Below are positions 3,318 through 40,553 of a stretch of 64,000 nt of DNA, piece after piece. The translations under genes were made by a program, and so were the position numbers. The notes under the pieces are model-generated. The model saw only the letters and a list, made by a program, of their open reading frames with translations, searched no databases and was not told the DNA's origin. Location: contig PKDZ01000072.1 in the NCBI GenBank assembly GCA_002862785.1, forward strand, positions 1 through 64,000, in the 5' to 3' direction. How positions within the stretch are numbered: the first letter of the stretch is position 1; the number at the start of each line of letters is the position of its first letter. The DNA comes from Flavobacteriales bacterium (GTDB lineage: Bacteria; Bacteroidota; Bacteroidia; Flavobacteriales_D; Sanyastnellaceae).

Positions 3318-6300
3318 ATGACCAACCACACCTCGCGCCGAGCCTCATGGGCTGCGCTGCTGACATTGGGACTGCTCGCCTGGAGCACTGGTCCCTTGTC
3401 TGCCCAATCGATTTCCCTCACCGGAACCGTCCTCGACGGTGAATCTGGAGACCCGCTCATCGGGGCCACCATCCTGGAGAGCGGCACCACCAATGCCACA
3501 AGCGCCGGAGCCGACGGCTCTTTCACACTGAAGGTCAACGGACTGCCCGCCGCCCTCAAGGTGAGCTTCATCGGCTATGTGGCCCAGACCTTGACAGTGG
3601 AGACCGCCTCCCCCATCCGAGTCTCCCTCGACATTGACGCCCAGCTCGTCGACGAGGTCGTCGTGGTGGGATACGGCCGGCAGAAAAAGAAGGTCTCCAC
3701 CGGATCGATCTCCAAGGTGACCGCCAAAGACATCGAAGGCATTGCCGTTCCCGACGTGACCTCCACGCTCGAGGGCCTGACCTCCGGTCTGATCGTCAAC
3801 GAGTCCAGTGGCCAGCCGGGATCCGGAAAGAGCATCCTCATCCGCGGCATCAGCACCAACGGAGACAACTCCCCGCTCTACATCGTGGACGGCGTGCAGC
3901 TCGGCAACATCGACAACATCAACCCGAGCGACATCGAGTCCGTCGACGTGCTGAAGGATGCCGCCTCCAGTGCCATCTACGGAGCCCGGGCCGCCAACGG
4001 TGTGGTCATCATCACCACCAAGAATGGCAGCAAGGGAGACGCGAGCATCACATACTCCGCGAGCTACCTGAACTCCCAACCCTGGAAACTCCCGACCATG
4101 CTCGGGGCTGAGGACTATGTGATCCTGATGCGCGAGAAATTCGCCAACAGCAACCAGACCTCCGCGCTGGACGTGTTGGGCTTCCCCAACTTCGGAGACC
4201 CGCTCACCGCCAGCACCAACTGGATGGAGGAGATCTTCAACCCGGCGCAGGTCATCAACCACCGCATCACCGCCTCCGGGGACAACAGCTACATCTCCTT
4301 TGACTACTGGGACCAGAACGGCGTCATCGGTGGCGAGAAGTCCAACTACAAGCGCTACGCCATGCGCTACAACTCGTCCAAGAAGATCAAGGACTTCCTG
4401 ACCGTGGGCCAAAACCTTTACCTGAACCGTACACAGAACAACAACATCGGCACCAACAGCGCCTTCGGCGGCGTTCAGTCCGACGCCTTCGCCTACGATC
4501 CGCTGACCCCGATCTATGACGACGAGGCCGACTTCGGCTTCGCGCAGTCGCCCTGGGTCCAGAAGGAGTACATCAACCCGCTGAGCCGGCTGTACCTCGC
4601 TGGAGGAGACAACAAGTCCGACCAGATCATCGGCAACGTCTACATCGAATACGAGCCGATCGAAGGACTGCGCCTCAAGACCGATGGTGGTTTCGACCTC
4701 AACTGGTACGACTACCGCTACTTCACCCCCACCTACTACTTCCACCCGGCGGCCCAGAACCTGAGCAACGACGTGGGACAGGGGTCCGGGAATTTCCAGG
4801 GCTTCCAGTGGGAGAACACCGCCAACTACACGACCACGCTGCAGGAGAAGCACAACCTCGACTTCCTCGTCGGAACGTCGTTCCGGACCACGGCGTCCCG
4901 CCAAGTCGGAGGCTCCTCCCAAGGCGTTCCGATGGACGCGGAGTTCAACCCCAACTTCCACTACATCGACGCCGGTCAGGACACCACTGATTTGGCCTTT
5001 GGCGGTGCTTCCGTCGACTATGCCATCATCAGCACGTTCGGGCGACTGCTCTACAACTACGACGAGAAGTACCTCTTCTCCGCGACCATCCGCCGCGACG
5101 GCTCCTCCAACTTCGGAGAGAACAACCGCTACGGCGTCTTCCCTTCCGCCTCCCTCGGCTGGGTCGCCTCCAAGGAGGACTTCCTCAAGGATTCAGACAA
5201 GATCAGCTTCCTGAAGATCCGCGCCTCCTGGGGAGTCAATGGTTCCGACCGCATTTCCCCGCTGAGCTATGTGGCCCGCATCCAGAACGTGTTCACCTAC
5301 CCCTTCGGCTCGGAGGTCCAGACCCTGAATACCGGAACGGCCCTGGCCGCACCGCCGAACCCCAATGTCCGTTGGGAAGAGAGTGTCCAGCTTGACCTCG
5401 GTGTCGAATTGGGACTCTTTGATGACAAGGTGTCCTTCGAGGCGGACGTCTACCGCAAGCAGACCAAGGACCTGCTCATGACCCAGCAGATTCCCGGCTA
5501 CGTAGGCGCCACCAACAACCCGACCTCCAACCTCGGTGAGATTCTCAACGAAGGCGTCGAGTTCTCCCTCAGATACCGCATGGGACAGGGTGATCTCAAG
5601 CTCAACACCACCCTCAACTACACCCACTTCCGCAACGAGGTCATCAGCGTGGCCGGCGAAACGGGCTACCTGAACGGATGGGGCTGGCCGGTGCGCAACA
5701 CCGCCATCACCCGGATGACCGAGGGCTATGCCGTCGGCCACTTCGTCGGCTACCAAGCCGATGGCATCTTCCAGACGCAGGCCGACATCTTCAGCCACAT
5801 CAACCTCGAAGGCGATCCACTGCAGCCCAACGCCCAACCCGGAGACATCCGGTTCCTGGACACCAACGGGGACGGCGTCATCAACTCCGACGACATCGGC
5901 GACATCGGCACCCCGTGGCCGAAGCACATCCTCGGTCTGAGCGCCAACCTCACCTACAAGGACTTCTACGTCAACGCCATCTTCAACGCCCAGCTCGGCC
6001 ACGAGATCTACCGCACCTACGAGCGGAGCGACGTGACCTTCTCCAACATGCAGACCTTCTGGCTGGACCGTTGGACACCCGAGGCGCCGAGCGAGGAGCT
6101 GCCCCGCCTCACCTCCACCGACCCCAACAACAACCAGCGCCCCTCCAGCTTCTACGTGGAGAACGGCAACTTCCTTCGCCTGCGCAACCTGCAGATCGGC
6201 TGGAACCTGCCGGCGGAGTGGACACACCGCGCCAAGATGAAGGACGTCAAGGTCTACCTGACCGGAAACAACCTCTTCACCGTCACCAACTACCGCGGAT

Positions 6301-6407
6301 TTGACCCGGACATCGGCACCAGCGGCTGGATCCTGGACACCGGCATCGACAAGGGTTTCTATCCCAACAACCGTTCCTTCGGCGCCGGCCTCAACGTCAC
6401 CTTCTGA
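3318..6407 (+). CDS. SusC/RagA-family TonB-linked outer-membrane transporter
   Basis: 1029-aa TonB-dependent importer that takes up glycan oligosaccharides with its SusD partner. Order seen: signal peptide (1-30, ending LSAQ); carboxypeptidase-regulatory-like domain (about 32-105, motif GTVLDGESGDPLIGATI); the SusC signature VDEVVVVGYG near 111-120; plug domain to about 230 (SILIRGISTNGDNSPLYIVDG, DVLKDAASSAIYGARAANG); and a beta-barrel ending in an aromatic residue (NVTF). There is no STN domain, so direct signalling to an anti-sigma factor is not expected. It is the first gene of the PUL; SusD starts 10 nt after its stop. A palindromic promoter-like element lies 74 nt upstream. Length is typical. 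Confidence 0.97.
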   Translation: MTNHTSRRASWAALLTLGLLAWSTGPLSAQSISLTGTVLDGESGDPLIGATILESGTTNATSAGADGSFTLKVNGLPAALKVSFIGYVAQTLTVETASPIRVSLDIDAQLVDEVVVVGYGRQKKKVSTGSISKVTAKDIEGIAVPDVTSTLEGLTSGLIVNESSGQPGSGKSILIRGISTNGDNSPLYIVDGVQLGNIDNINPSDIESVDVLKDAASSAIYGARAANGVVIITTKNGSKGDASITYSASYLNSQPWKLPTMLGAEDYVILMREKFANSNQTSALDVLGFPNFGDPLTASTNWMEEIFNPAQVINHRITASGDNSYISFDYWDQNGVIGGEKSNYKRYAMRYNSSKKIKDFLTVGQNLYLNRTQNNNIGTNSAFGGVQSDAFAYDPLTPIYDDEADFGFAQSPWVQKEYINPLSRLYLAGGDNKSDQIIGNVYIEYEPIEGLRLKTDGGFDLNWYDYRYFTPTYYFHPAAQNLSNDVGQGSGNFQGFQWENTANYTTTLQEKHNLDFLVGTSFRTTASRQVGGSSQGVPMDAEFNPNFHYIDAGQDTTDLAFGGASVDYAIISTFGRLLYNYDEKYLFSATIRRDGSSNFGENNRYGVFPSASLGWVASKEDFLKDSDKISFLKIRASWGVNGSDRISPLSYVARIQNVFTYPFGSEVQTLNTGTALAAPPNPNVRWEESVQLDLGVELGLFDDKVSFEADVYRKQTKDLLMTQQIPGYVGATNNPTSNLGEILNEGVEFSLRYRMGQGDLKLNTTLNYTHFRNEVISVAGETGYLNGWGWPVRNTAITRMTEGYAVGHFVGYQADGIFQTQADIFSHINLEGDPLQPNAQPGDIRFLDTNGDGVINSDDIGDIGTPWPKHILGLSANLTYKDFYVNAIFNAQLGHEIYRTYERSDVTFSNMQTFWLDRWTPEAPSEELPRLTSTDPNNNQRPSSFYVENGNFLRLRNLQIGWNLPAEWTHRAKMKDVKVYLTGNNLFTVTNYRGFDPDIGTSGWILDTGIDKGFYPNNRSFGAGLNVTF

Positions 6408-6417
6408 TTCGACCATC

Positions 6418-8043
6418 ATGAACAAGCTTCAACGCAACCTCACCGTCCTCGCCGGAATCGCGCTCGTGCTGGCCGCCTGCAGCAAGGACCGCCTCGAAGT
6501 GGAACCCGTCAACGAGTTCCTCTCGAGCAACTATTACCAGACCGAAGGCCAGATCGGCTCGGCCCTGATTGCCGTCTACGACCCCCTCGGATGGGGCATG
6601 GCCTATGGCCAATGGGTCGGCCACGTCATGTACGGAGACATCCGTTCGGACAACGCCAACGCCGGGGGTGACCCGTCCAACAACGACCAGCCCGGCTGGC
6701 AGGAGTTCGACGACTTCACCAACACGAACACCAACGTCGTCACCCACCCGATCTACCGCCGGGGATACGTCGGCATCAGTCGGGCCAATGCCCTGCTGGA
6801 CCTCGCGCAGATCGAGTCCAACGCCGTGACCGAGTACAAGGCCCAGGCCAAGTTCCTGCGCGCCTACTACCACTTCGATCTGTTCCGCCACTTCGGCCCG
6901 ATTCCGCTCATCACCACGAGCCTGACGCCGGAAGATGTGAACCTCGAACGCAGCACGCTGTCGGCCATCATGCAGCAAATCGTGACCGACTGCGAGGAAG
7001 CCATCCCCCACCTCCCGCTCATCGCCCCGACCGGGCAAGAAGGCCGGGTGACCAAGGGCGCTGCCTACGCCCTCATGGGCAAGGCCTACCTCTACTGGGC
7101 CGACCTCAAGAACGACGACCCTCAGCTCTTCCAGAGTGCCGCCGCCGCCTTCCAGAATGTGGTGGACCTCGGCGTCTACCAACTGGTCGACGACATGGAG
7201 GACCTGTACAAGTTCGAAAACCGCAACACGGTCGAGTCCGTCTTTGAAATCCAGCGCACGCCGCTCTACCAGAGCGACTGGGGCTGGTTCGAAGGCGTCG
7301 ACGGCAACGGCATGATCCAGCTCTGCGGCATCCGTGGACTGTGTGCCGCCCACCCGAACTACGAAGCCGGCTGGGGCTTCATGAGTGTGACGCCCAGCCT
7401 GTGGAACCACTTCCTCGACGACGACACCTACCGCCGCGATGTGGCCATCATCTCCGAGGACGGGCTCGCCCAGGACCTCGCCGATGCAGGGCTGAGCTGC
7501 GACCCGATCATCGACATGACCCAGAACAACCCGTTGGACTTCACCGGATACTGGCAGGTGAAGTTCCCCAACCTGAAAGCCTACGCCGGCACCAACATCA
7601 ACGGTGGAAACGAGCACCTGACCAAGGCCCAGAACACCTCGGTGTTCCGCTACGCCGACGTCCTGCTCATGCTCGCCGAGGCCCTGCACCGCGGCTCCGG
7701 AGACGACGGACTCGCGATGGCCTACATCGACCAGGTCCGCGAGCGCGCCGCCGGCCCCGGGGACAACAGCAGCACCTACCGCACGGCCTCCATGGTGATG
7801 GCCGACGAAGGCTGGAGCCTGCTCGACCTCATCTGGTACGAGCGCCGCGCCGAGCTCGCCTGCGAGGGCGACCGCTGGTTCGACCTCGTCCGGAGTGGAC
7901 GCGCCAGCGCCGACCTCTTCCTCGACGATGGGGACAAGGCCGCCAACTTCAGCGAGACCCACCTGTGGCTGCCGATTGCCCTCGAAGAGACGCAAATCGC
8001 CCCCACCCTCACGACCTACCCCGACGCCTCCCTCTTCAATTGA
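6418..8043 (+). CDS. SusD/RagB-family glycan-binding lipoprotein
   Basis: 541-aa surface lipoprotein forming the lid of the SusC transporter and binding the glycan. The start at 6418 gives a lipoprotein signal with lipobox LAAC (Cys at about 20) followed by SKDR; the open frame extends further upstream but overlaps susC and lacks a signal. The usual RagB/SusD features are present: a helical TPR-like scaffold (ALLDLAQIESNAVTEYKAQAKFLRAYYHFDLFRHFG near 120-160) and the C-terminal half with FRYADVLLMLAEAL and LIWYERRAELACEGDRWFDLVR. It lies 10 nt after susC and 49 nt before the PKD lipoprotein, so the three are almost surely one transcript. Confidence 0.96.
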   Translation: MNKLQRNLTVLAGIALVLAACSKDRLEVEPVNEFLSSNYYQTEGQIGSALIAVYDPLGWGMAYGQWVGHVMYGDIRSDNANAGGDPSNNDQPGWQEFDDFTNTNTNVVTHPIYRRGYVGISRANALLDLAQIESNAVTEYKAQAKFLRAYYHFDLFRHFGPIPLITTSLTPEDVNLERSTLSAIMQQIVTDCEEAIPHLPLIAPTGQEGRVTKGAAYALMGKAYLYWADLKNDDPQLFQSAAAAFQNVVDLGVYQLVDDMEDLYKFENRNTVESVFEIQRTPLYQSDWGWFEGVDGNGMIQLCGIRGLCAAHPNYEAGWGFMSVTPSLWNHFLDDDTYRRDVAIISEDGLAQDLADAGLSCDPIIDMTQNNPLDFTGYWQVKFPNLKAYAGTNINGGNEHLTKAQNTSVFRYADVLLMLAEALHRGSGDDGLAMAYIDQVRERAAGPGDNSSTYRTASMVMADEGWSLLDLIWYERRAELACEGDRWFDLVRSGRASADLFLDDGDKAANFSETHLWLPIALEETQIAPTLTTYPDASLFN

Positions 8044-32602: not shown

Positions 32603-34078
32603 TCAATAGACCAGGGTCTGCATGGCGTGCGGCAGGATGCTCGCCTTGACTTGCTGGTCACCCACGATGAGTGCATAGTCCATCGGCTCGTCCGTACGGT
32701 TCATCACCACGGTCACCTTTTCGCCCGACGGATTCTCAAACGTGGTGCTTTCGAGGGTGCTGCGGCTGGTCGCGGTGCTCACGCGGCGCGCACCCGGCTC
32801 GATGAATTTCGAGAAGTGACCGATGTAGTAGTAGGTCGGTGTCAGGATCAACTCGTCGGTCTGCGTGTCGCCGTGGATGGGCGCAAAGCAGAAGTTCTGG
32901 ACGTGATTGGGCCCTCCCCCTTCGTTGAGCAGGATGTTCCAATCCGTCCAGCCCACGGTGCCGCTGTTGAAGTCGTTGATCATGCTGTTGCCGTAGCGCT
33001 CGGCGTTGGACCAGCGCTCGTAGTGGTCGCTGTCAAAGCCCTCCTGGCACCCTTCCGTGAACATCAGCTTCTTGTCCGGAAACGACTCCTGGATCAGCTT
33101 GAGGTTGTCGTACTTCGGCAAGCCACCAGTCCAGGTCTCGTACCAATGGAACCCGGTGCCCCACGCGTAGGACGCGGCCACGGAATCCTCGAAAATGGTG
33201 TTGGCGCGGTGCGTGATCAGGTCGCGGTTGTGGTCCCACACCACAATGTTCTTGTCGCCGTACCCGGCGGCGTCCATGGCCGGACCGAGGTGGTACTTCA
33301 GGAAGTCCCGCTCCTGCTCCGCCGTGTAGATGCACGACTCCCAGCGCTGCACCGCCATGGGCTCATTCTGGATGGTCACCCCCCACACGGGCAACCCTTG
33401 CGCTTCGTAGGCCTCGATGAACTTCACGAAATACTGCGCCCACGCCCCGTAGAACTCCGGCAGCAGCGAGCCACCGTACAGCATGTTGTTGTTGGTTTTC
33501 ATGAACGCCGGCGGGCTCCACGGGCTGGCATAAAATACCAGGTCCTCACCCACCATTTCCGCCGCCCGCTGGATCATGGGGATGCGCTTCACGGTGTCCG
33601 GCGCGATGGAGAACGTTTCCAGCTCCGCATCTCCCTCCTCGATGTAGGTGTGGCTTCCGAGACCAAAGTCACAGGAATGGATGCTGGTGCGGATGATGGT
33701 GTATCCGATGCCCTCCTCCCCGTAGTAGGCCTTCAGCAACGCCTCCTGCTTCGCCGGGCTCATCTGCGAGAACACCTCCGCTGAGGCGTCGGTGATCGCC
33801 CCACCAATGCCGAGGAACGTCTGGAACTTCTTGTTGGGGTTGACGAAAATGGCCACCTCCGTTTCGAGGGGCTGATTCGCCGCTTCGAAATCCAGTCGTC
33901 CTCCATCCGCCAGCCGCATCTCCGTGTTCTCAGCCGTGGCATACACCTGCGCCGACGTCAGGGCTTCCGCTGAAGCGGGAGCCACTGCAGAGTCAGCAGC
34001 CACAGAAGAAACGTCCGTCGCAGGCGGCGTGCCGCAGGAAACAAGGCCAAGAACAAGGGGCAAGGCGAATCGAAACAT
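32603..34078 (-). CDS. GH30-family glucanase lipoprotein
   Basis: 491-aa glycoside hydrolase of family 30 (glucosylceramidase/beta-1,6-glucanase/beta-glucosidase group). The signal has lipobox GLVSC (Cys15) and is followed by a low-complexity Ala/Ser linker (16-45). The catalytic (beta/alpha)8 domain starts at QTFLGIGGAITDASAEV (86-102). The acid/base is Glu239 in TIQNEP and the nucleophile Glu342 in FTEGC. The C-terminal beta-domain (about 430-491) is typical. GH30 enzymes in flavobacterial laminarin PULs remove beta-1,6 branches, which would complement GH16, GH5 and GH3 here. It lies about 13 kb from GH3 and is not in the same operon. A TAAACTTG box is on the minus strand at about 34106. 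Confidence 0.93.
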   Translation of the reverse strand: MFRFALPLVLGLVSCGTPPATDVSSVAADSAVAPASAEALTSAQVYATAENTEMRLADGGRLDFEAANQPLETEVAIFVNPNKKFQTFLGIGGAITDASAEVFSQMSPAKQEALLKAYYGEEGIGYTIIRTSIHSCDFGLGSHTYIEEGDAELETFSIAPDTVKRIPMIQRAAEMVGEDLVFYASPWSPPAFMKTNNNMLYGGSLLPEFYGAWAQYFVKFIEAYEAQGLPVWGVTIQNEPMAVQRWESCIYTAEQERDFLKYHLGPAMDAAGYGDKNIVVWDHNRDLITHRANTIFEDSVAASYAWGTGFHWYETWTGGLPKYDNLKLIQESFPDKKLMFTEGCQEGFDSDHYERWSNAERYGNSMINDFNSGTVGWTDWNILLNEGGGPNHVQNFCFAPIHGDTQTDELILTPTYYYIGHFSKFIEPGARRVSTATSRSTLESTTFENPSGEKVTVVMNRTDEPMDYALIVGDQQVKASILPHAMQTLVY

Positions 34079-34157: not shown

Positions 34158-34398
34158 TCACCGAGGCAGCTGCAACGCCCGTACTTCCTCTTCGAAGAAG
34201 GCGTCCAACACCGCCCGGGTGGCATCGTCCAAGCGGTGTTGCATCGCCTCAATGTTGACCAGCAATTGGGCTTCCGAGACCGCGCCCGGAATCACCGTGC
34301 TCACAGCGTCAAACGACGTGCAGAACGAGAGAGCGGCGGACATCAGCCGCTCCTCACCGACGATTTCCTTCACCCGATTTATACCGAATAAGAGTTTG
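34158..34398 (-). pseudogene. C-terminal fragment of an aldo/keto reductase
   Basis: The minus-strand frame encodes about 70 residues matching the C-terminus of aldo/keto reductases: SAALSFCTSFDAVSTVIPGA corresponds to the conserved last strand/helix with the IPG motif, followed by a helix and stop. The N-terminal 230 or so residues, including the catalytic tetrad, are missing. The frame runs into a stop codon upstream (about 34397), where base composition shifts to the AT-richer island. The only start inside is a GTG at 34373. This is a truncated remnant at the island edge. Confidence 0.75.
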
Positions 34399-34490
34399 GC
34401 TCAAGTTAACGCCCCGTGAATTGACCCAGCAGGACAAAGCCCCCCAACCCCGATGTTGTGATGAAGACCTTTTCGAGATTGTCCACAAAC

Positions 34491-34520
34491 AAAAAGAGCC
34501 CTGCATGACGCAGGGCCCTT
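34491..34520 (-). terminator. Rho-independent terminator
   Basis: Stem GCCCTGC/GCAGGGC (34498-34504 with 34510-34516), loop of five, followed on the minus strand by TCTTTTTG. It lies 43 nt after the stop of the minus-strand SnoaL-like gene. Confidence 0.85.
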
Positions 34521-34562
34521 TCCGTCTGGAATGATCTGTCCTGGAGCGGACTCAGAATACGA

Positions 34563-35081
34563 TCATTCGCTCGCTTTGGCTGCAGCGTAAGCGGCGGCTT
34601 CTGCATTCTGAGCATCCTCGCTCCAATACCCGTGCAATTCGACAATGCGACCATCCTCCCACTTGTAGCCAAAGTGACCGCGGTTGGAGTAGCTGTCTCC
34701 TGTGGTTTGACCATCTCCTGTCCAAGTGAACCAAGAGCGCGACCAGACCTCTCCATCGCTCCAGTATTCGGATTGGATGCGCATGTCTTTGATGTCAATG
34801 TTGCTGTAGAGTGCGTCATGGTGCATTTTGAATCCGCCCATGAGGTTCTCCCTTCCAGAGAATTCCAGGTTGTTGATTTTGCACACCACATCTTCGGCAT
34901 ACAAGTCCATGACGTCCCATTCGTTTTGAACGTATTTGTCAAAGAGAAGCTCAATCTTGGCTGAGAACTCGTCGTCCATGCTCACTGTAGGCTGTTCCAC
35001 GGCTCCGTTCTGATCGGCTGGTGCGCATCCGAAGAGCATTGCTGCTGCCCAAAGGACCAGTGTGTAAGGTGCTTTGTTCAT
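34563..35081 (-). CDS. SnoaL/NTF2-like lipoprotein
   Basis: 172-aa lipoprotein: signal MNKAPYTLVLWAAAMLFGC with Cys19. The mature domain (about 38-160) has the cone-like NTF2/SnoaL pattern: a helical start (IELLFDKYVQNEWDVMDLYAEDVVCKINN), then GRENLMGGFKMHHDALYSNI, then long strands (SRSWFTWTGDG, GHFGYKWEDGRIVELHGYW). Such domains are enzymes or ligand binders; no catalytic residues can be named. The tail is Ala/Glu-rich. The start at 35081 is chosen for the lipobox; the open frame continues 27 codons upstream without a signal. It is the first intact gene inside the island and is followed by a good terminator. Confidence 0.7.
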   Translation of the reverse strand: MNKAPYTLVLWAAAMLFGCAPADQNGAVEQPTVSMDDEFSAKIELLFDKYVQNEWDVMDLYAEDVVCKINNLEFSGRENLMGGFKMHHDALYSNIDIKDMRIQSEYWSDGEVWSRSWFTWTGDGQTTGDSYSNRGHFGYKWEDGRIVELHGYWSEDAQNAEAAAYAAAKASE

Positions 35082-35231
35082 TTGATTTGATTTGTATGCA
35101 CCGTAAATAATGATATGGAGCATTATGCTGACATGAACTGCCTTTGATGTTGTCAACACCAAAACCAGCGCTCATGAGAGACACCAAACCGCTTCGCGGA
35201 TCATTGAGCCACAACTCGAGCCCTTGGGGGC

Positions 35232-35513
35232 TCAAATCTGTTTGAGCTCATAGATCTCGTACGATTCCATCACTTCATCAAAAACGGGCTTCGACACTGG
35301 ATTCGACCCGTCCAAAAAGGCATGTAACGCGTCCATGTCGTGGACTGCAATTTTGAACATGACTTTGCTTTGATCCGGGGCCACAGTGCCGATGGTCTTG
35401 CTGAGGTCAGCAACCTTCTTCCTTTCAGCAATCCCCGCATCGGATTGCATGAATTCCATGAATTTTGGGAATTGGCCAGCTTTCAGCATTCCGACGACGA
35501 GTAAATCCTTCAT
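35232..35513 (-). CDS. Small ferredoxin-fold-like protein, unknown
   Basis: 93-aa cytosolic protein (start at 35513; an in-frame ATG at 35546 would add 11 residues). It reads MKDLLVVGMLKAGQFPKFMEF... with a strand-helix-strand pattern (VMFKIAVHDMDALHAFLDG, FDEVMESYEIYEL) reminiscent of small dimeric alpha/beta-barrel or antibiotic-monooxygenase-like (ABM) domains. I cannot assign a family. It lies about 150 nt upstream of the SnoaL-like gene on the same strand inside the island. Confidence 0.5.
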   Translation of the reverse strand: MKDLLVVGMLKAGQFPKFMEFMQSDAGIAERKKVADLSKTIGTVAPDQSKVMFKIAVHDMDALHAFLDGSNPVSKPVFDEVMESYEIYELKQI

Positions 35514-35613
35514 GTCTTTTTGCCGCAAGAACGGGCCGAAAATCATAAATCCAGCTCATCATCTCGGGAAGTAGTGAACTACACTCATGTGCCAATCCTC
35601 CAGTCTCATCTAG

Positions 35614-35727
35614 GTCGAAACAGGGGCTCTCATTGTGAGCTGAAAGCAGCTCGGCGCAGAAGGAAGTCTCGGCTGGTCCCATTACTGGTGCCTGCAATCC
35701 ACTGCGTTCTTCACTTTGGGACTTTGA
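35614..35727 (+). pseudogene. Decayed 3' fragment of a DUF2490-like gene
   Basis: The plus-strand frame starting at 35614 reads ETGALIVS, then a TGA at 35641 where the intact gene has Trp, then KQLGAEGSLGWSHYW and CLQSTAFFTLGL and a stop. The DUF2490 gene at 31733-32560 ends VVSWKQLGAEGSLGWSHYW, YLQTTAFFTLSQGE. The fragment is thus a mutated copy of only the last 37 or so codons, in opposite orientation and about 3.9 kb away. Weaker similarity seems to extend a little upstream (about 35600). The rest of the 35547-35834 gap holds nothing I recognise. Confidence 0.7.
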
Positions 35728-35834
35728 TGTCTGCAGCTGCATGGTGGGTCCTGTTGTCACCCTGACGACATGCAGCTTGGCCGATTGACCGGAGGGTTTA
35801 TTAAGTGGCATAATTCTTGATATTTGGGGGGGGC

Positions 35835-36611
35835 ATGCCCATTTACACCGCCCCAAAACACGTTTTCGCCTGGTTGTTAGCCGCATTGATTCTTCTGTCT
35901 TCTTGTTCGAGCAGCATTCTCATCTCTTCAGTCCCAAGCAAGGCAGATGTTTATGCCAACGGGGAGTATATCGGCCAAACTCCTGTGCGCCATCGGGATT
36001 CGGAAGTCGGTGGAAGCCTGCTGGATTTGCAGATTGAAAAAGAGGGTTACGAAGTCCTCACAACTGGAGTAGAAAAAAGGGGGAGAATCAACCTCTGGGC
36101 ATTGATGGGGTGTTGGATGCTTTTTCCATTGGCATGGCTGGAAATGTATCCTAAGCGATATCTGGGCCGTTTGCAGCCGATCACGAAAGAGCATTCTCCG
36201 CTGCATGTGGAGGTCCAGACGAGTGAGGCTGTTGGCTCAAATATTTTCGTTGTGGTCCTCGAGAATGCGCCTTGCCATGGTTCGACCAACGCCTCAGTGC
36301 TCGAGGCTTCAATTGGCATCCGGCTGATGGAAAAATATCGGGTGCTGGAGCGACAAGCATTGGATGTGGTCAGTGCAGAGCAGCATCGAAACATGACTTG
36401 GATACACGATGAGTCGAGCATCGTGGATGCAGGCAAATTCTCTGGAGCGAGAGGGGTGGTCATGGTGAGCCGGTTCTGCGATCAGCGGTCTACATTAACC
36501 TCCATGCGCTTCGTGGATTGTGAAAGCGGTGCTCTGCATTGGGCGGTGCTGGCTAAAAATCAAACTGTGGACGTGCTGGTGCAAGCGCTGTTCAATCATT
36601 TGGATTCGTGA
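35835..36611 (+). CDS. PEGA-domain lipoprotein
   Basis: 258-aa lipoprotein with a long signal (Cys24 in LLSSC). A PEGA-type domain follows directly (SVPSKADVYANGEYIGQTPVRHRD, about 30-55), then a GYEVL strand and a hydrophobic segment (INLWALMGCWMLFPLAWLEM, about 85-104) that may be a membrane anchor. The C-terminal half (about 130-258) is an alpha/beta domain with EASIGIRLMEKYRVLERQALD and a VVMVSRFCD strand, resembling CsgG-like or curli-type assembly proteins only loosely. Function unknown. An in-frame ATG at 35817 gives a worse signal. It is the only plus-strand intact gene of the island. Confidence 0.65.
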   Translation: MPIYTAPKHVFAWLLAALILLSSCSSSILISSVPSKADVYANGEYIGQTPVRHRDSEVGGSLLDLQIEKEGYEVLTTGVEKRGRINLWALMGCWMLFPLAWLEMYPKRYLGRLQPITKEHSPLHVEVQTSEAVGSNIFVVVLENAPCHGSTNASVLEASIGIRLMEKYRVLERQALDVVSAEQHRNMTWIHDESSIVDAGKFSGARGVVMVSRFCDQRSTLTSMRFVDCESGALHWAVLAKNQTVDVLVQALFNHLDS

Positions 36612-37029
36612 AACCGGCTACCGGCATCAATCATGATTGCCCGTCCAGATTCTCAGAATTTTGGAGCCCCTTGAGGGTAAATGTGGAGCCCCCGAAGGAG
36701 CCCCCTTTCATCCGCGGCACAACACCCGAAACCCCAGTAAACATTGGTGTTTTTCTTTTTCACACGCTTGCCTTCACCATTAGAAAAAGAGTGCTTTACA
36801 CCTCTTCGTGGAGCCGGGGGGAGTGTAGACACCCCCTCTGACCCCCAATGATTCCTGGCCATTCAGCGCTTGATTCTTTCATATCACCTATTGTGTCACC
36901 TATTTGATGCAAACTTAAAAGGATCTGAATTCCTTGTGCTGCGAGTTTACCCCTGGAATGGTTAAGCTTGGCATTCTTACAGTGCGAAACCCCTCAAACA
37001 GAAGCCGAACACCATCAACCTAATAATAG
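36612..37029. other. Gene-free gap inside the island containing an ssrA-like repeat
   Basis: 418 bp without a supported gene. It contains the ssrA-like repeat at 36808-36824, three GGAGCCCC runs between 36662 and 36705, and two direct 9-bp repeats TCACCTATT at 36884 and 36896. Short open frames on the minus strand run through it but have no recognisable product. Confidence 0.5.
36808..36824 (-). repeat. ssrA 3'-end copy C (probable att remnant)
   Basis: GTGGAGCCGGGGGGAGT is identical over 17 bp to 40153-40169, the acceptor-stem end of the tmRNA gene, in the same orientation. Beyond this the T-loop sequence differs (GTAGACACCCCC). Confidence 0.65.
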
Positions 37030-38130
37030 TCACACAAAATGTCGCTTTAGCCGATTGATGGGCGATTCGAACAAGCGCCAGCTCAACTCAGACACTGCGA
37101 TGCTCAACGCAACGCTCGTGGCAAGGCTGGTCAAACCAAAAAACACACCTCTGGTATGCCCAAGGACCAACAAGTCGTACCCAACCTCCGGAGCATGACA
37201 AAAATCCAGAACACCCTCCACCATGAGAGGAACGAACTTATGCCATACGTAGAGGCCGTAGCTGATCATGCCAATGCGTCGAATGAGATGGTGACGCAAA
37301 AATGTTCCTGTCCAAGCGGAGGAGACACCTGACGCACATCTTGCAACCACAAAACCAAATAACCCGACCATCCCGACGTTCAGCAGGGGGACAATTTTTT
37401 CCACGCCATAGAACTTGCCAACCCAACCTACAACCATCATCAATGCTGCCAACATCATCCACCGGTTGCGATGACGAAGGGCATTCACCGACTTGGCACC
37501 AAAAAATGCTATCAAACTGCCAAGGCCCAAGGCATGTAGATTGTAGAACAACAAAAGGTTGACCTTAGATTCCACAAAAAACCATGGTTCTACCAGCCTC
37601 AGGATCACACTTAAGGCTATGGAAAAGACGGTGATCCGGACAAATGAAGATTTGGCCGTCAGCAACACGAGCAGCGGCCAAATCAAATAGAACTGTTCCT
37701 CCACACTCAACGACCACAAGTGCCCTCCTAATTCAGGCCAATGGCCAAGCATACTGATGTAAACGTTGCTCAGGTAAAACACATGCCACGCCAAGCCCTC
37801 ATGCCAATTCATCCAACCAGCAAAGGCACACAGTCCGAGTACGAGGTAGTACAGTGGGAAAATTCGGAGAAACCGTCGGGCATAAAAATCCTTGAGACTT
37901 TTGCTCAGCTTCACATCCTTTGAGCGCAACAAAATTGACGTGATCAAAAATCCACTGAGCACAAAGAAGAGTTGAACACCTGCGCTGCCAAACGGCAAAG
38001 ACAGTTGATACTTCAATGGAAAGAAGTGTGCAAAAAGTACAGAGCTTACGGCTAACGCCCGCAGGCCATCGAGCTCGGGCATATATTCCAGCTTGGAATT
38101 CACACTTGAAAAATAAAGCAGGATTAACAA
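37030..38130 (-). CDS. Acyltransferase-3 (OafA/YrhL-like) membrane protein
   Basis: 366-aa integral membrane acyltransferase of family 3, which transfers acyl groups to sugars of surface polysaccharides or similar substrates. Visible motifs: MPELDGLRALAVSSVLFAHFF (17-37, with the conserved RA and His), GSAGVQLFFVLSGFLIT (49-65), FYARRFLRIFPLYYL, and HLWSLSVEEQFYLIWPL (about 137-153). About ten membrane helices follow, and the C-terminus WRLFESPINRLKRHF is typical. It could start at 38130 or 38082 (M17). It is the only gene between repeats C and B. Cell-surface acylation is a common cargo of islands that change phage receptors (inference). Confidence 0.9.
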   Translation of the reverse strand: MLILLYFSSVNSKLEYMPELDGLRALAVSSVLFAHFFPLKYQLSLPFGSAGVQLFFVLSGFLITSILLRSKDVKLSKSLKDFYARRFLRIFPLYYLVLGLCAFAGWMNWHEGLAWHVFYLSNVYISMLGHWPELGGHLWSLSVEEQFYLIWPLLVLLTAKSSFVRITVFSIALSVILRLVEPWFFVESKVNLLLFYNLHALGLGSLIAFFGAKSVNALRHRNRWMMLAALMMVVGWVGKFYGVEKIVPLLNVGMVGLFGFVVARCASGVSSAWTGTFLRHHLIRRIGMISYGLYVWHKFVPLMVEGVLDFCHAPEVGYDLLVLGHTRGVFFGLTSLATSVALSIAVSELSWRLFESPINRLKRHFV

Positions 38131-38302
38131 TCAACAATTAAGTCCAATTCACATTTAGCCCCCCAGCAAGACAGACATCTTTATTAGGGCCTGAACAGAT
38201 CGCTGTTATCGTCATACTCATTTTTATTTGAGCCTCCCTTCCATTCTTTTGGGACATGCAAGAATGCCTGAAACGGCCTGTTTATCCTGCAGAGTTAGGC
38301 GC

Positions 38303-38333
38303 AAAAAGCCCGTGAACACCGGGCTCACGGGCT
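38303..38333 (-). terminator. Rho-independent terminator after the HTH gene
   Basis: Stem AGCCCGTGA/TCACGGGCT (38307-38315 with 38325-38333), nine-base loop; on the minus strand it is followed by TTTTTGC. It lies 120 nt after the HTH stop, beyond repeat B, and can end the restriction-HTH transcript. Confidence 0.85.
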
Positions 38334-38353
38334 GTTCCCTGTAATCGTTTCAG

Positions 38354-38397
38354 GTGGAGTCGGGAAGTCGAACCCCCGTCCAAGTGGAGCCGGCGGG
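38354..38397 (-). repeat. ssrA 3'-end copy B (probable att remnant, two parts)
   Basis: 38366-38383 (AGTCGAACCCCCGTCCAA) is identical over 18 bp to the tmRNA T-arm at 40167-40184. The acceptor part before it is degenerate (GTGGAGTCGGGA). Directly after it, at 38384-38393, a second GTGGAGCCGG matches the tmRNA end again, suggesting two superimposed junctions. Confidence 0.7.
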
Positions 38398-38452
38398 AAT
38401 CAGCACCCCGTTGAAACCATCAGCAATCACTATCATTTCAGAGGCAGATGCC

Positions 38453-38725
38453 TTAATGGTCCCTATGATGGCCACCCTTTTTCCTATGCTTGACCCACTC
38501 GGCGCCAGCAGGAACCAAGTATGCTTCAATCTGCTTTTGCGTGATGAGATAGGGGCCGCGGCCGCCACCTTTTCGGAAAGCCCCAAGCTGATGTGAGCTG
38601 ATTTCTTTACGCACCACCTCCGGATTCATGCGGAGGATTTCTGCGGCTTCTTTGAGAGTGTAGTATTTGATCAAGGGGAAATGCTTAAAATGGAAAAGCA
38701 GTTCTTCAGGGCTTATAGACTTCAT
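38453..38725 (-). CDS. Excisionase-like HTH_17 DNA-binding protein
   Basis: 90-aa protein with a winged-helix/MerR-like excisionase fold: YYTLKEAAEILRMNPEVVRK (about 22-41) matches the HTH_17 pattern, and GAFRKGGGRGPYLITQKQIEAYL (about 47-69) matches its wing. A basic tail follows (KHRKKGGHHRDH). Proteins of this type act as recombination directionality factors or as small regulators. The start at 38725 lies four bases after the stop of the restriction endonuclease gene on the same strand, so they form an operon. It may control the nuclease gene or, with an integrase supplied in trans, excision of the cassette (inference). Confidence 0.75.
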   Translation of the reverse strand: MKSISPEELLFHFKHFPLIKYYTLKEAAEILRMNPEVVRKEISSHQLGAFRKGGGRGPYLITQKQIEAYLVPAGAEWVKHRKKGGHHRDH

Positions 38726-38729
38726 TGTC

Positions 38730-39998
38730 TTAAATGGTGAGAATCTCCTCTGGACGACGGTTAGCGACCATTGAATCATGTTCTTCATCAATTTCTTCAA
38801 GCAATTCGGTAACACTCGTTATCCCCCTATCAAATTTCATCTGCTCTACTACAGTTGCGACCTCCAAACCATTCACCATCATGATCGGGTAGGAATCTTC
38901 AATGATCTCGCGCTGCACTTGCAATGAAAAATAGCTAGTAGTGACATAGGCACCTATCCAACCTCTTTGCAAACGGGCGACAGTTCTGGCAATGTGATTA
39001 CCCCCTGTGGGAGTATCGAGCTTCTCACATTTTGCTTGACCTAAGACTATGATTTTGGTCAAGCTAAAATCACGTCCCACATCAATTCTTCCATAAAAAT
39101 CAGCACCGCCGTCTGACCCTTTTGACGTTATCCAGCCCGGAATGAAATGCCCATTTGATTTAGTTACGAGGTGCTCGACAACTTTTAGTGCAAGCAATTC
39201 AAAACGATCCTTACGATTTTGGTAGAAGCCATAAATGTCCTTCAGGGTTTTCTCGAGCTTACTTCCTGGTTCTGGCCTTTGGACATGGCCTGGCAATGCC
39301 TGAATTCTGGCCACATTACGCCGAATTGACTCAATCGACTTCTTTGCTCTAACCCAGCTTGTCCAGGATGACGGAGCGTGTTCAATCGTCGACTGAAGAT
39401 CTAGCTTTGGATTTCGTCGATCGTTGATCCAACTCCAATTGAACTGCTCGTTTTCATCCTGCAAATTGAACACCACACAGTCAAAAGCGTAATTTGAAAA
39501 AGAAAGTCCAGCAGTGTTGACCTGAGTCACCAACTCTACCCTTTCAATGATCCCAAAACCACTGAAAATGACTTTTCCCGACTCCTCAGAACGATAGAAA
39601 ACCAACGGTACGGCATTATCCCTATTCGATTCGCGTACATGTGTCTCATATGCCTCAAGAAGCGCCTTGTTTCCTGAAGCCTCGTGAGCCCTCTTTGAGC
39701 GTGACTTGTTATCCCCAAAGTACCTTAGGTGGCCTCTGTCGAGATCATAGACATCTTGCCACGGCGTCGTGGCCGAACCGACCTTATGAGAACTAGTCCT
39801 AAGAATAATTGCCGCAACGCGACCAGAACCAGGCCCCTTGCCTTTTGATCTAATGACATTGATCCCCCGAGAAAGATTAATTTTTGGCTGGCCTTGAAGA
39901 TGTGTTACATGAAAATGATTGCGCAGACCATCTATGCTTTCAATACTGTCATCTTGGCTATGCGGGGTTCGACAGGTCTCGTTAAACTCAATTTTCAT
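38730..39998 (-). CDS. Modification-dependent restriction endonuclease, MspJI/AspBHI-like
   Basis: 422-aa predicted type IV-like restriction enzyme that would cut DNA carrying modified cytosine. The N-terminal half (about 1-200) contains DLDRGHLRYFGDNK (85-98) and fits the AspBHI-type N-terminal, SRA-like recognition domain. The C-terminal half is a PD-(D/E)XK nuclease: EHLVTK (275-280) and KGSDGGADFYG (293-303) with Asp300, then GQAK with Gln321 and Lys323. Asp, a 20-residue gap and QxK match the D-(X)n-QxK signature of the MspJI family. The start at 39998 is chosen as the first ATG after composition-compatible upstream sequence; the open frame extends to 40043. No methyltransferase is adjacent, as expected for a modification-dependent enzyme. 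It is co-transcribed with the HTH gene. Confidence 0.82.
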   Translation of the reverse strand: MKIEFNETCRTPHSQDDSIESIDGLRNHFHVTHLQGQPKINLSRGINVIRSKGKGPGSGRVAAIILRTSSHKVGSATTPWQDVYDLDRGHLRYFGDNKSRSKRAHEASGNKALLEAYETHVRESNRDNAVPLVFYRSEESGKVIFSGFGIIERVELVTQVNTAGLSFSNYAFDCVVFNLQDENEQFNWSWINDRRNPKLDLQSTIEHAPSSWTSWVRAKKSIESIRRNVARIQALPGHVQRPEPGSKLEKTLKDIYGFYQNRKDRFELLALKVVEHLVTKSNGHFIPGWITSKGSDGGADFYGRIDVGRDFSLTKIIVLGQAKCEKLDTPTGGNHIARTVARLQRGWIGAYVTTSYFSLQVQREIIEDSYPIMMVNGLEVATVVEQMKFDRGITSVTELLEEIDEEHDSMVANRRPEEILTI

Positions 39999-40152
39999 GT
40001 GAGGGAGATATTTCAAACGGAAGCAACATTGCGGTCGAAGCACTTCAGCACGCCGATTCGACCCACCTAAGACGCCGCTTTTTTCTTGAAACCAACGAAG
40101 TTAAAGGCAAGAACAGTCAGGATGCAAATACCTGAACATCAAATAGTTATTA

Positions 40153-40184
40153 GTGGAGCCGGGGGGAGTCGAACCCCCGTCCAA
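40153..40184 (-). repeat. Intact ssrA 3' end, copy A (putative attachment site)
   Basis: The acceptor stem plus T-arm end of the tmRNA gene. Its halves recur at 36808 (17/17 bp) and 38366 (18/18 bp). It marks the boundary between conserved ssrA and the island. Confidence 0.65.
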
Positions 40185-40553
40185 ACAAGCAACGCCTGCA
40201 GCGTTCTCCATGCTCAGTCCACGATTGATTTTCGACCAGGGGCTGACCGTGGACGGCCCACCCTTGACTTAGCCTTGTAAAATTTCGCTACAGGGTCAAG
40301 ACGCCCCTTTCGCTAGATCCATTCTCCTGATGCCCCATTGCCTCGCGGATAGGATCCGAACGACGAGACGGGACAGCTCGTTCTGCCACCTAGTGGCTAG
40401 AATTAGGCGAATCCTCCGAGAGGATTAGGCCGCGAGCGCGTAGGAAGTGTTGCCAGTTATGGCTTGGGTTTCTTGATTAACGAGTAGCCACCCTACGCAC
40501 TCGGCATGCTGACCGCGACGTTCAGACTTGCTGTCAAATCCAAAATCGGCCCC
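40154..40553 (-). ncRNA. ssrA: tmRNA (transfer-messenger RNA)
   Basis: About 400-nt tmRNA on the minus strand, which rescues stalled ribosomes and tags the nascent peptide. The 5' end is GGGGCCGATTTTGGATTTGAC and the 3' end GGGGGTTCGACTCCCCC-CGGCTCCA. The acceptor stem pairs GGGGCCG with CGGCTCC and keeps the G-U pair at the third position that alanyl-tRNA synthetase reads. The T-loop is TTCGACT. The tag frame ends GNTSYALAA (40428-40454) followed by TAA (40425-40427); YALAA is the usual degradation tag end. The first tag codon is inferred by length from the known Bacteroidota nonapeptide. CCA is not encoded (CTA follows the discriminator A). Confidence 0.95.

Follow-up and report, generated by a model that had tools for sequence, protein, structure and literature searches.

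Small integrative elements are very probably stacked at the 3' end of ssrA in a Flavobacteriales bacterium

Introduction

In Dehalococcoides, islands stand in tandem at ssrA, the transfer-messenger RNA (tmRNA) gene, each with a copy of the ssrA 3' end and an adjoining conserved motif as its boundary; 15 of 31 ssrA islands have no integration module, the enzyme is a serine recombinase, DsiB, and the vcr islands that were described have a length of ~12 kb (McMurdie et al. 2011, PMC3146451). A second close model is accretion by cis-mobilizable elements (CIMEs), which, as summarised in PMC5704250 (after Pavlovic 2004), are decayed integrative and conjugative or integrative and mobilizable elements that are integrase-free and lie in tandem at one target gene. 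A non-exhaustive search of the open-access literature found no paper on such arrays in Flavobacteriales. Here we analyzed a 64,000-nt stretch of a Flavobacteriales genome (assembly GCA_002862785.1, contig PKDZ01000072.1, positions 1 to 64,000; hereafter the window), in which a first-pass annotation made from the sequence alone had proposed a cassette array built on the ssrA 3' end. The array is very probably made of small integrative elements stacked one after another at this gene end, with the newest adjoining ssrA. Serial insertion of integrase-free modules is well supported by comparison with related genomes, and one essential gene thus appears to be a docking port for small modules needing a borrowed enzyme, with related genera carrying the same ends and other cargo.

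Results

The array lies behind ssrA and comprises two elements and an outer segment:

40153-40553, minus strand (3' end at 40153): ssrA, the docking site, called by ARAGORN and Rfam
40153-40160, minus strand: shared core, the final 8 bases of ssrA, GGCTCCAC
38384-40152, no strand: Element I, 1769 bp, nearest ssrA
36808-38383, no strand: Element II, with a tandem copy of the ssrA 3' end at its head
38354-38383, minus strand: degenerate copy (30 nt) of the complete ssrA 3' end, directly abutting the site of Element I
34423-36807, no strand: Segment III, outermost

The repeats of the ssrA 3' end reported earlier were found as claimed, with an acceptor copy at 36808-36824 (17/17 identical, oriented as ssrA) and a T-arm copy at 38366-38383 (18/18 identical) directly adjoined by an acceptor match. 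When the final 45 nt of ssrA were aligned locally, the three places scored 23, 20 and 19, in ssrA orientation throughout, against a maximum of 17 in 20 shuffles, showing that the repeats are real and exceed chance. Their description changed in part. The T-arm half is actually a piece of a degenerate copy of the complete 3' end (38354-38383), behind which lies a strong terminator (fold z=-3.0); the acceptor match at 38384-38391 is present, but forms the core of a separate right-end site; and the acceptor half at 36808 also belongs to a right-end site, one with its own arm repeats. The AT-richer character of the island was borne out, as GC is ~44-54% across 34.4-40.15 kb and 58-66% in the flanks. 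Within the genus, the T-stem of ssrA (window 40161-40182) occurs in two compensated forms, GGGGG/CCCCC and CCGGG/CCCGG, which are spread across clades and were possibly swapped through earlier insertions.

Right-end sites are of two types. C-type sites hold ~50 bp of conserved non-ssrA DNA terminating in GGCTCCAC, and U-type sites hold ~60 bp terminating in GGGTCCAC. Those in the window are:

38384-38444, minus strand: right-end site of Element I, C-type, core 38384-38391 (blind profile E=1e-8; C-site model E=2.9e-13, this site being included in the model)
36808-36871, minus strand: right-end site of Element II, C-type, core 36808-36815 (blind profile E=2e-11)
36998-37020, minus strand: U-like half-site opening a 218-bp right end that is also present in relative G016 (U profile E=1e-4)
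34423-34468, minus strand: degenerate U-type site at the far edge (blind U profile E=7e-4)

A blind C profile, built on nine C-type sites that all came from other genomes, gave the two C-type sites as its top matches in the window (36808-36863 and 38384-38432). With the ssrA-like core removed they still came first and second (E=2e-5 and 0.06), only the first being significant. The U profile was also made from sites of other genomes, and its remaining window matches were no better than ~E=1. These repeats might have nothing to do with insertion, being ordinary repeats between genes, or terminators, with an incidental likeness to ssrA, which would suit the finding of U-type sites at some other chromosomal places. 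However, the C-site model matched solely the two sites and ssrA itself in the own genome, gene ends stand in no fixed relation to the sites, and arm repeats lie at fixed distances from them. Orientation is also uniform: the 67 sites on 19 contigs (each with at least two sites) share one common orientation within every contig, with a median spacing of 1.3 kb (range 88 bp to 5.1 kb). The ordinary-repeat reading is already contradicted for C-type sites, and overall we consider it very improbable.

Across 17 genomes of the genus, strong matches to the C-site model (E<1e-8) were restricted to ssrA contigs, to array-tied contigs linked through a GH30 flank or shared modules, and to one short, unplaced contig of G004; at family level, at least two further genera also gave strong matches. 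U sites in exact form turned up in 21 stretches from draft genomes whose titles read Flavobacteriales, Crocinitomicaceae or Bacteroidetes. Viral contigs contained no C-type site and three 17-mer U matches, these without site context, and integron attC boxes (RYYYAAC, GTTRRRY) were found in 0 of 25 sites. Lone U-type sites (L131 7686-7743 and L143 1548-1604) were seen beside ordinary chromosomal genes, for an efflux pump and DAHP synthase, outside any array seen.

The DNA behind ssrA varies from genome to genome within the genus, and none of the other genomes seen at ssrA has Element I. Sequence that bears a terminator and resembles window 38264-38383 sits directly behind ssrA in G003 and G016, so that 38384-40152 reads as an insertion that displaced this DNA. 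One left-end family, consisting of a terminator and arm repeats and 84-96% identical, was found behind ssrA in G003, behind U sites in G121 and G120, and behind a C site in G093. Homology within this family starts exactly at the 8-bp core GGNTCCAC, and the DNA upstream of the junctions is 45-73% alike in gapped global alignment, the top value being between two U sites. A crossover in the T-loop was set aside because the homologous blocks start at GGNTCCAC, and reading left-end DNA in general as native ssrA downstream DNA was rejected because it is also present behind other sites.

Ends and cargo are combined in different ways among the relatives. The right end at window 36803-37020 is 78% identical to L080 10254-10459, with an acyltransferase as neighbour in one case and an amine oxidase in the other. 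A 1.2-kb Fic module has two identical boundaries in G014, G015 and G120, which represent two genera; its left neighbours there are C, C and U sites, respectively, and its right-hand DNA is unrelated. A glucoamylase module lies behind a U site in G015 and behind a C site in G016. Common blocks of G010 and G016 (97.6-98.9% identical) are interrupted by G016-only segments, of which two (L080 8829-10577 and 12563-15621) begin and end at, or close to, U and C sites, while the edges of a third (3787-6522) were not resolved to any site. Breakpoints in relatives lie mostly at repeats, several resolved to the 8-bp core, in agreement with the serial integrase-free insertions first proposed. The opposite outcome, the whole block as one integrase-bearing unit, was looked for in relatives and not seen; a single intact island was rejected because the pieces at ssrA differ between sister species and an integrase is absent.

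The sites could also be passive repeats between which segments were exchanged by RecA-type events, since site repeats of 50-60 bp suffice for occasional exchange and the G016-only segments lie between sites. Such shuffling by homologous recombination is improbable: junctions behind ssrA, U and C sites have just the 8-bp core in common, too short for homologous exchange, and same-type sites have a common arm layout at fixed distance.

Two further observations concern exchange and docking. A DUF262/HNH-like gene end with a C-type site is 91% identical between L081 7090-7972 (G010) and L123 778-1661 (G093), across two genera, which suggests that a possible defence gene was exchanged recently. In G121, a 31-bp sequence like the ssrA 3' end (L118 11341-11372) lies right behind a chromosomal hydrolase gene and heads a five-site array; it is perhaps a secondary docking place, and location of this array at ssrA is only a candidate.

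Arm repeats around a core are the layout of lambda-type attachment sites used by an arm-binding integrase. In C-type right ends, a pair of direct repeats lies 12 bp apart, with starts at 85 and 73 bp ahead of the core. Over 17 C-type sites of relatives, the mean match at that position was 6.7/9 against a background of 2.4, at lag 12 only, and the repeats were at least 7/9 alike in 12 of the 17. Left ends carry repeats at about 141, 153 and 175 bp from the core. Arm sequence varies between elements, but within a single element both ends match in G003 (GGTTCTAA) and G121 (AGGTGCCAA) and match closely in G016. The unit in G003, 681 bp long, runs from ssrA through a terminator, three AGGTTCTAA repeats, a 112-aa reading frame and two further repeats to an acceptor copy. 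In relatives, integrase-free elements of 0.7-2.4 kb have paired arm repeats, fixed in position, at either end, and so resemble complete substrates for a trans-acting integrase. Units of 88-94 bp that carry no cargo, like miniature elements, were found in three genomes (L140 2751-2904, L034 2823-2967, L121 3680-3828), two of the three with a palindromic left end (ATGTAAAGTGGACTTTACAT). The corresponding features of the window are:

36884-36904, minus strand: arm repeats of Element II, AATAGGTGA twice, 12 bp apart (36896-36904 and 36884-36892)
38456-38476, minus strand: weak arm-repeat pair of Element I (38468-38476 and 38456-38464), 6/9 alike
38240-38353, minus strand: left end of Element II, comprising a terminator (38303-38333) and DNA with homology to left ends from other genera, but lacking arm repeats

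Element II thus retains its right arms and Element I a weak pair; both have lost their left arms and are probably stranded. This loss is what would be expected if full-sized, integrase-bearing islands had inserted serially at ssrA and each had shrunk to its ends and cargo, with nothing moving in trans. Integrase loss is common in tandem elements (PMC5704250), and G010 shows that integrase-bearing elements insert here. On the other side, G003, G121 and G016 hold integrase-free elements with both arm sets intact, the cargo-free units recur in three genomes, and the Fic module boundaries are exact in two genera with different neighbours, which implies movement in small form. Decay is therefore possible but rather doubtful as the general account. 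Between the two options originally offered, repeated trans-mobilised insertion and shrinkage of older islands, serial insertion stands, the trans step would fit the mini-elements of relatives, and deletion applies in part, to Elements I and II.

The only tyrosine recombinases of the own genome (98.5% complete) are two of XerC/XerD type: XerD, which scores above the cut-off, and a XerC-like protein, which matches XerC best but falls below the XerC cut-off. The window elements contain no integrase, as the first-pass annotation had stated. No resolvase-domain gene was found in this genome, and a serine recombinase as in Dehalococcoides was rejected on this ground. In G010, a tyrosine integrase with arm-binding, SAM-like and catalytic domains lies ~180 bp behind ssrA. 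A 16-sequence integrase profile run over the scanned array loci detected no further integrase, and phage records gave only distant homologues of the G010 protein, 20-30% identical among the matches listed. Supply of an integrase in trans by a passing element is thus a putative step, though the best-supported one.

The cargo and the far flank of the array are:

38730-40043, minus strand: AspBHI-like methyl-directed restriction endonuclease, cargo of Element I (PADLOC mREase_II 3e-137; Pfam RE_AspBHI_N 1e-25)
38453-38815, minus strand: HTH_17 protein, cargo of Element I, excisionase-like, under the NCBIfam cut-off
37030-38130, minus strand: acyltransferase (Acyl_transf_3), cargo of Element II
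35817-36611, plus strand: PEGA-domain protein, cargo of Segment III, probable lipoprotein
35145-35629, minus strand: block common to sister species G007, there behind another C-type site; gene at 35232-35546
34563-35162, minus strand: SnoaL_2-domain protein, cargo of Segment III, probable lipoprotein
34158-34373, minus strand: C-terminal fragment of an aldo/keto reductase, cut at the array edge
32603-34078, minus strand: GH30 gene, chromosomal far flank, also reached by the G010 and G016 arrays

The start of the restriction endonuclease gene is more likely the ATG at 39998, and a peptide-pattern scan of genome contigs for relatives of this enzyme gave no match. The gene is co-directional with ssrA, ~150 bp behind it and with no clear terminator in between, so read-through from ssrA could express it. 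Segment III, described earlier as small lipoproteins and debris, does contain probable lipoproteins, but pure debris is ruled out by the conserved block common to G007 (84% identity over 35145-35521 in this sister species). The segment is probably composite and the oldest. Two of the segment boundaries are of ssrA type, as claimed, but the outermost is another site type: near 34374 there is no ssrA repeat, and the weak copy at 34423-34468 stands there instead. Site arrays on G016 contig C31 and G010 contig C52 terminate at a GH30 gene that shares 86-87% identity with window 32603-33941, which is why we took these arrays as the far part of the ssrA array.

Discussion

Comparison across genomes shows core-precise junctions, common ends with different cargo, and paired arms. 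We propose that an element consists of a left end (a terminator plus three arm repeats when intact), one to few cargo genes, and a right end, which in the C type comprises the two arm repeats, the conserved DNA and the final GGCTCCAC. A tyrosine integrase would join a circular element to the ssrA end by recombination between their cores, so that insertion would rebuild ssrA and move the older stack outward. The integrase would come in trans from a full-length relative such as that in G010, and mobilisation of this kind would agree with the intact arm-bearing mini-elements of relatives. The window elements are probably immobile unless carried along with a newly arrived neighbour.

Several points weigh against this model. 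Excision, circular intermediates, strand exchange within the core and the integrase acting in trans are inferred steps, and a helper integrase was found in one genome only (G010), the right end of its element being on another contig. Elements I and II have no recognisable left arms, a weak U-type site is all that bounds Segment III, and one G120 element has unlike arms at its ends, which may make it a hybrid. The far arrays of G010 and G016 are only putatively joined to ssrA, through synteny, their assemblies breaking in between. Occurrence of U sites partly away from arrays makes them less secure as ssrA-specific ends, and placement of several U-only arrays at ssrA is putative only.

Stacking at ssrA provides a concrete case of gene modules that retain only the DNA ends of integrative elements and depend on an outside recombinase, as miniature inverted-repeat transposable elements (MITEs) depend on transposons. 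Because paired, element-specific arm repeats predict which integrase moves which cassette, the spread of integrase-free islets becomes testable. The arrays also suggest a reason for the frequent breaks at ssrA in draft assemblies of this group, and a place in small genomes where genes for defence and accessory functions gather. A broader idea, slightly more doubtful than credible at present, is a family-wide exchange in Flavobacteriales, in which ssrA would serve as an integron-like dock, arm-bearing mini-elements (some with defence genes) would be moved by any passing arm-matched integrase, and older cassettes farther out would form an insertion record.

The array resembles tRNA and tmRNA islands of tyrosine integrases (Islander, PMC4383910) in that a restored tmRNA 3' end and a displaced fragment mark the ends, and differs from them in that several units are inserted serially and the window elements have no integrase gene, one having been found inside an element in G010 only. 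Like the integron cassette arrays and CALINs (clusters of attC sites lacking integron integrases) outlined in PMC11389934, it has small, one-site, co-oriented cassettes at a single dock with the enzyme elsewhere; unlike those outlined there, it has no attC boxes, no integron integrase, and cargo genes in both directions. Tycheposons, by their summary definition, are tyrosine-recombinase-associated cargo elements at specific tRNA genes and span 4-200 kb, a size that differs from the elements here.

As with the CIMEs summarised above, integrase-free elements with attachment sites lie in tandem at one target gene. The gene content of the elements here includes neither integrase nor transfer genes, the scanned array loci being integrase-free except in G010, and of their attachment sites the window retains cores and right arms with left arms absent, while both ends are intact in G003 and G121. 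Unlike CIMEs as summarised, some units here are single-gene or cargo-free, and several retain both arm sets. As in Dehalococcoides, the window has several tandem islands whose boundaries are ssrA or a copy of its 3' end. It differs in that the only integrase seen adjoining ssrA is a tyrosine recombinase and the own genome has no resolvase-domain gene, and site-to-site cassettes were seen without an integrase except in G010, with a median unit of 1.3 kb. Relative to Dehalococcoides, the new features are tyrosine-type sites with their arm repeats, minute cassettes, and element-specific arms.

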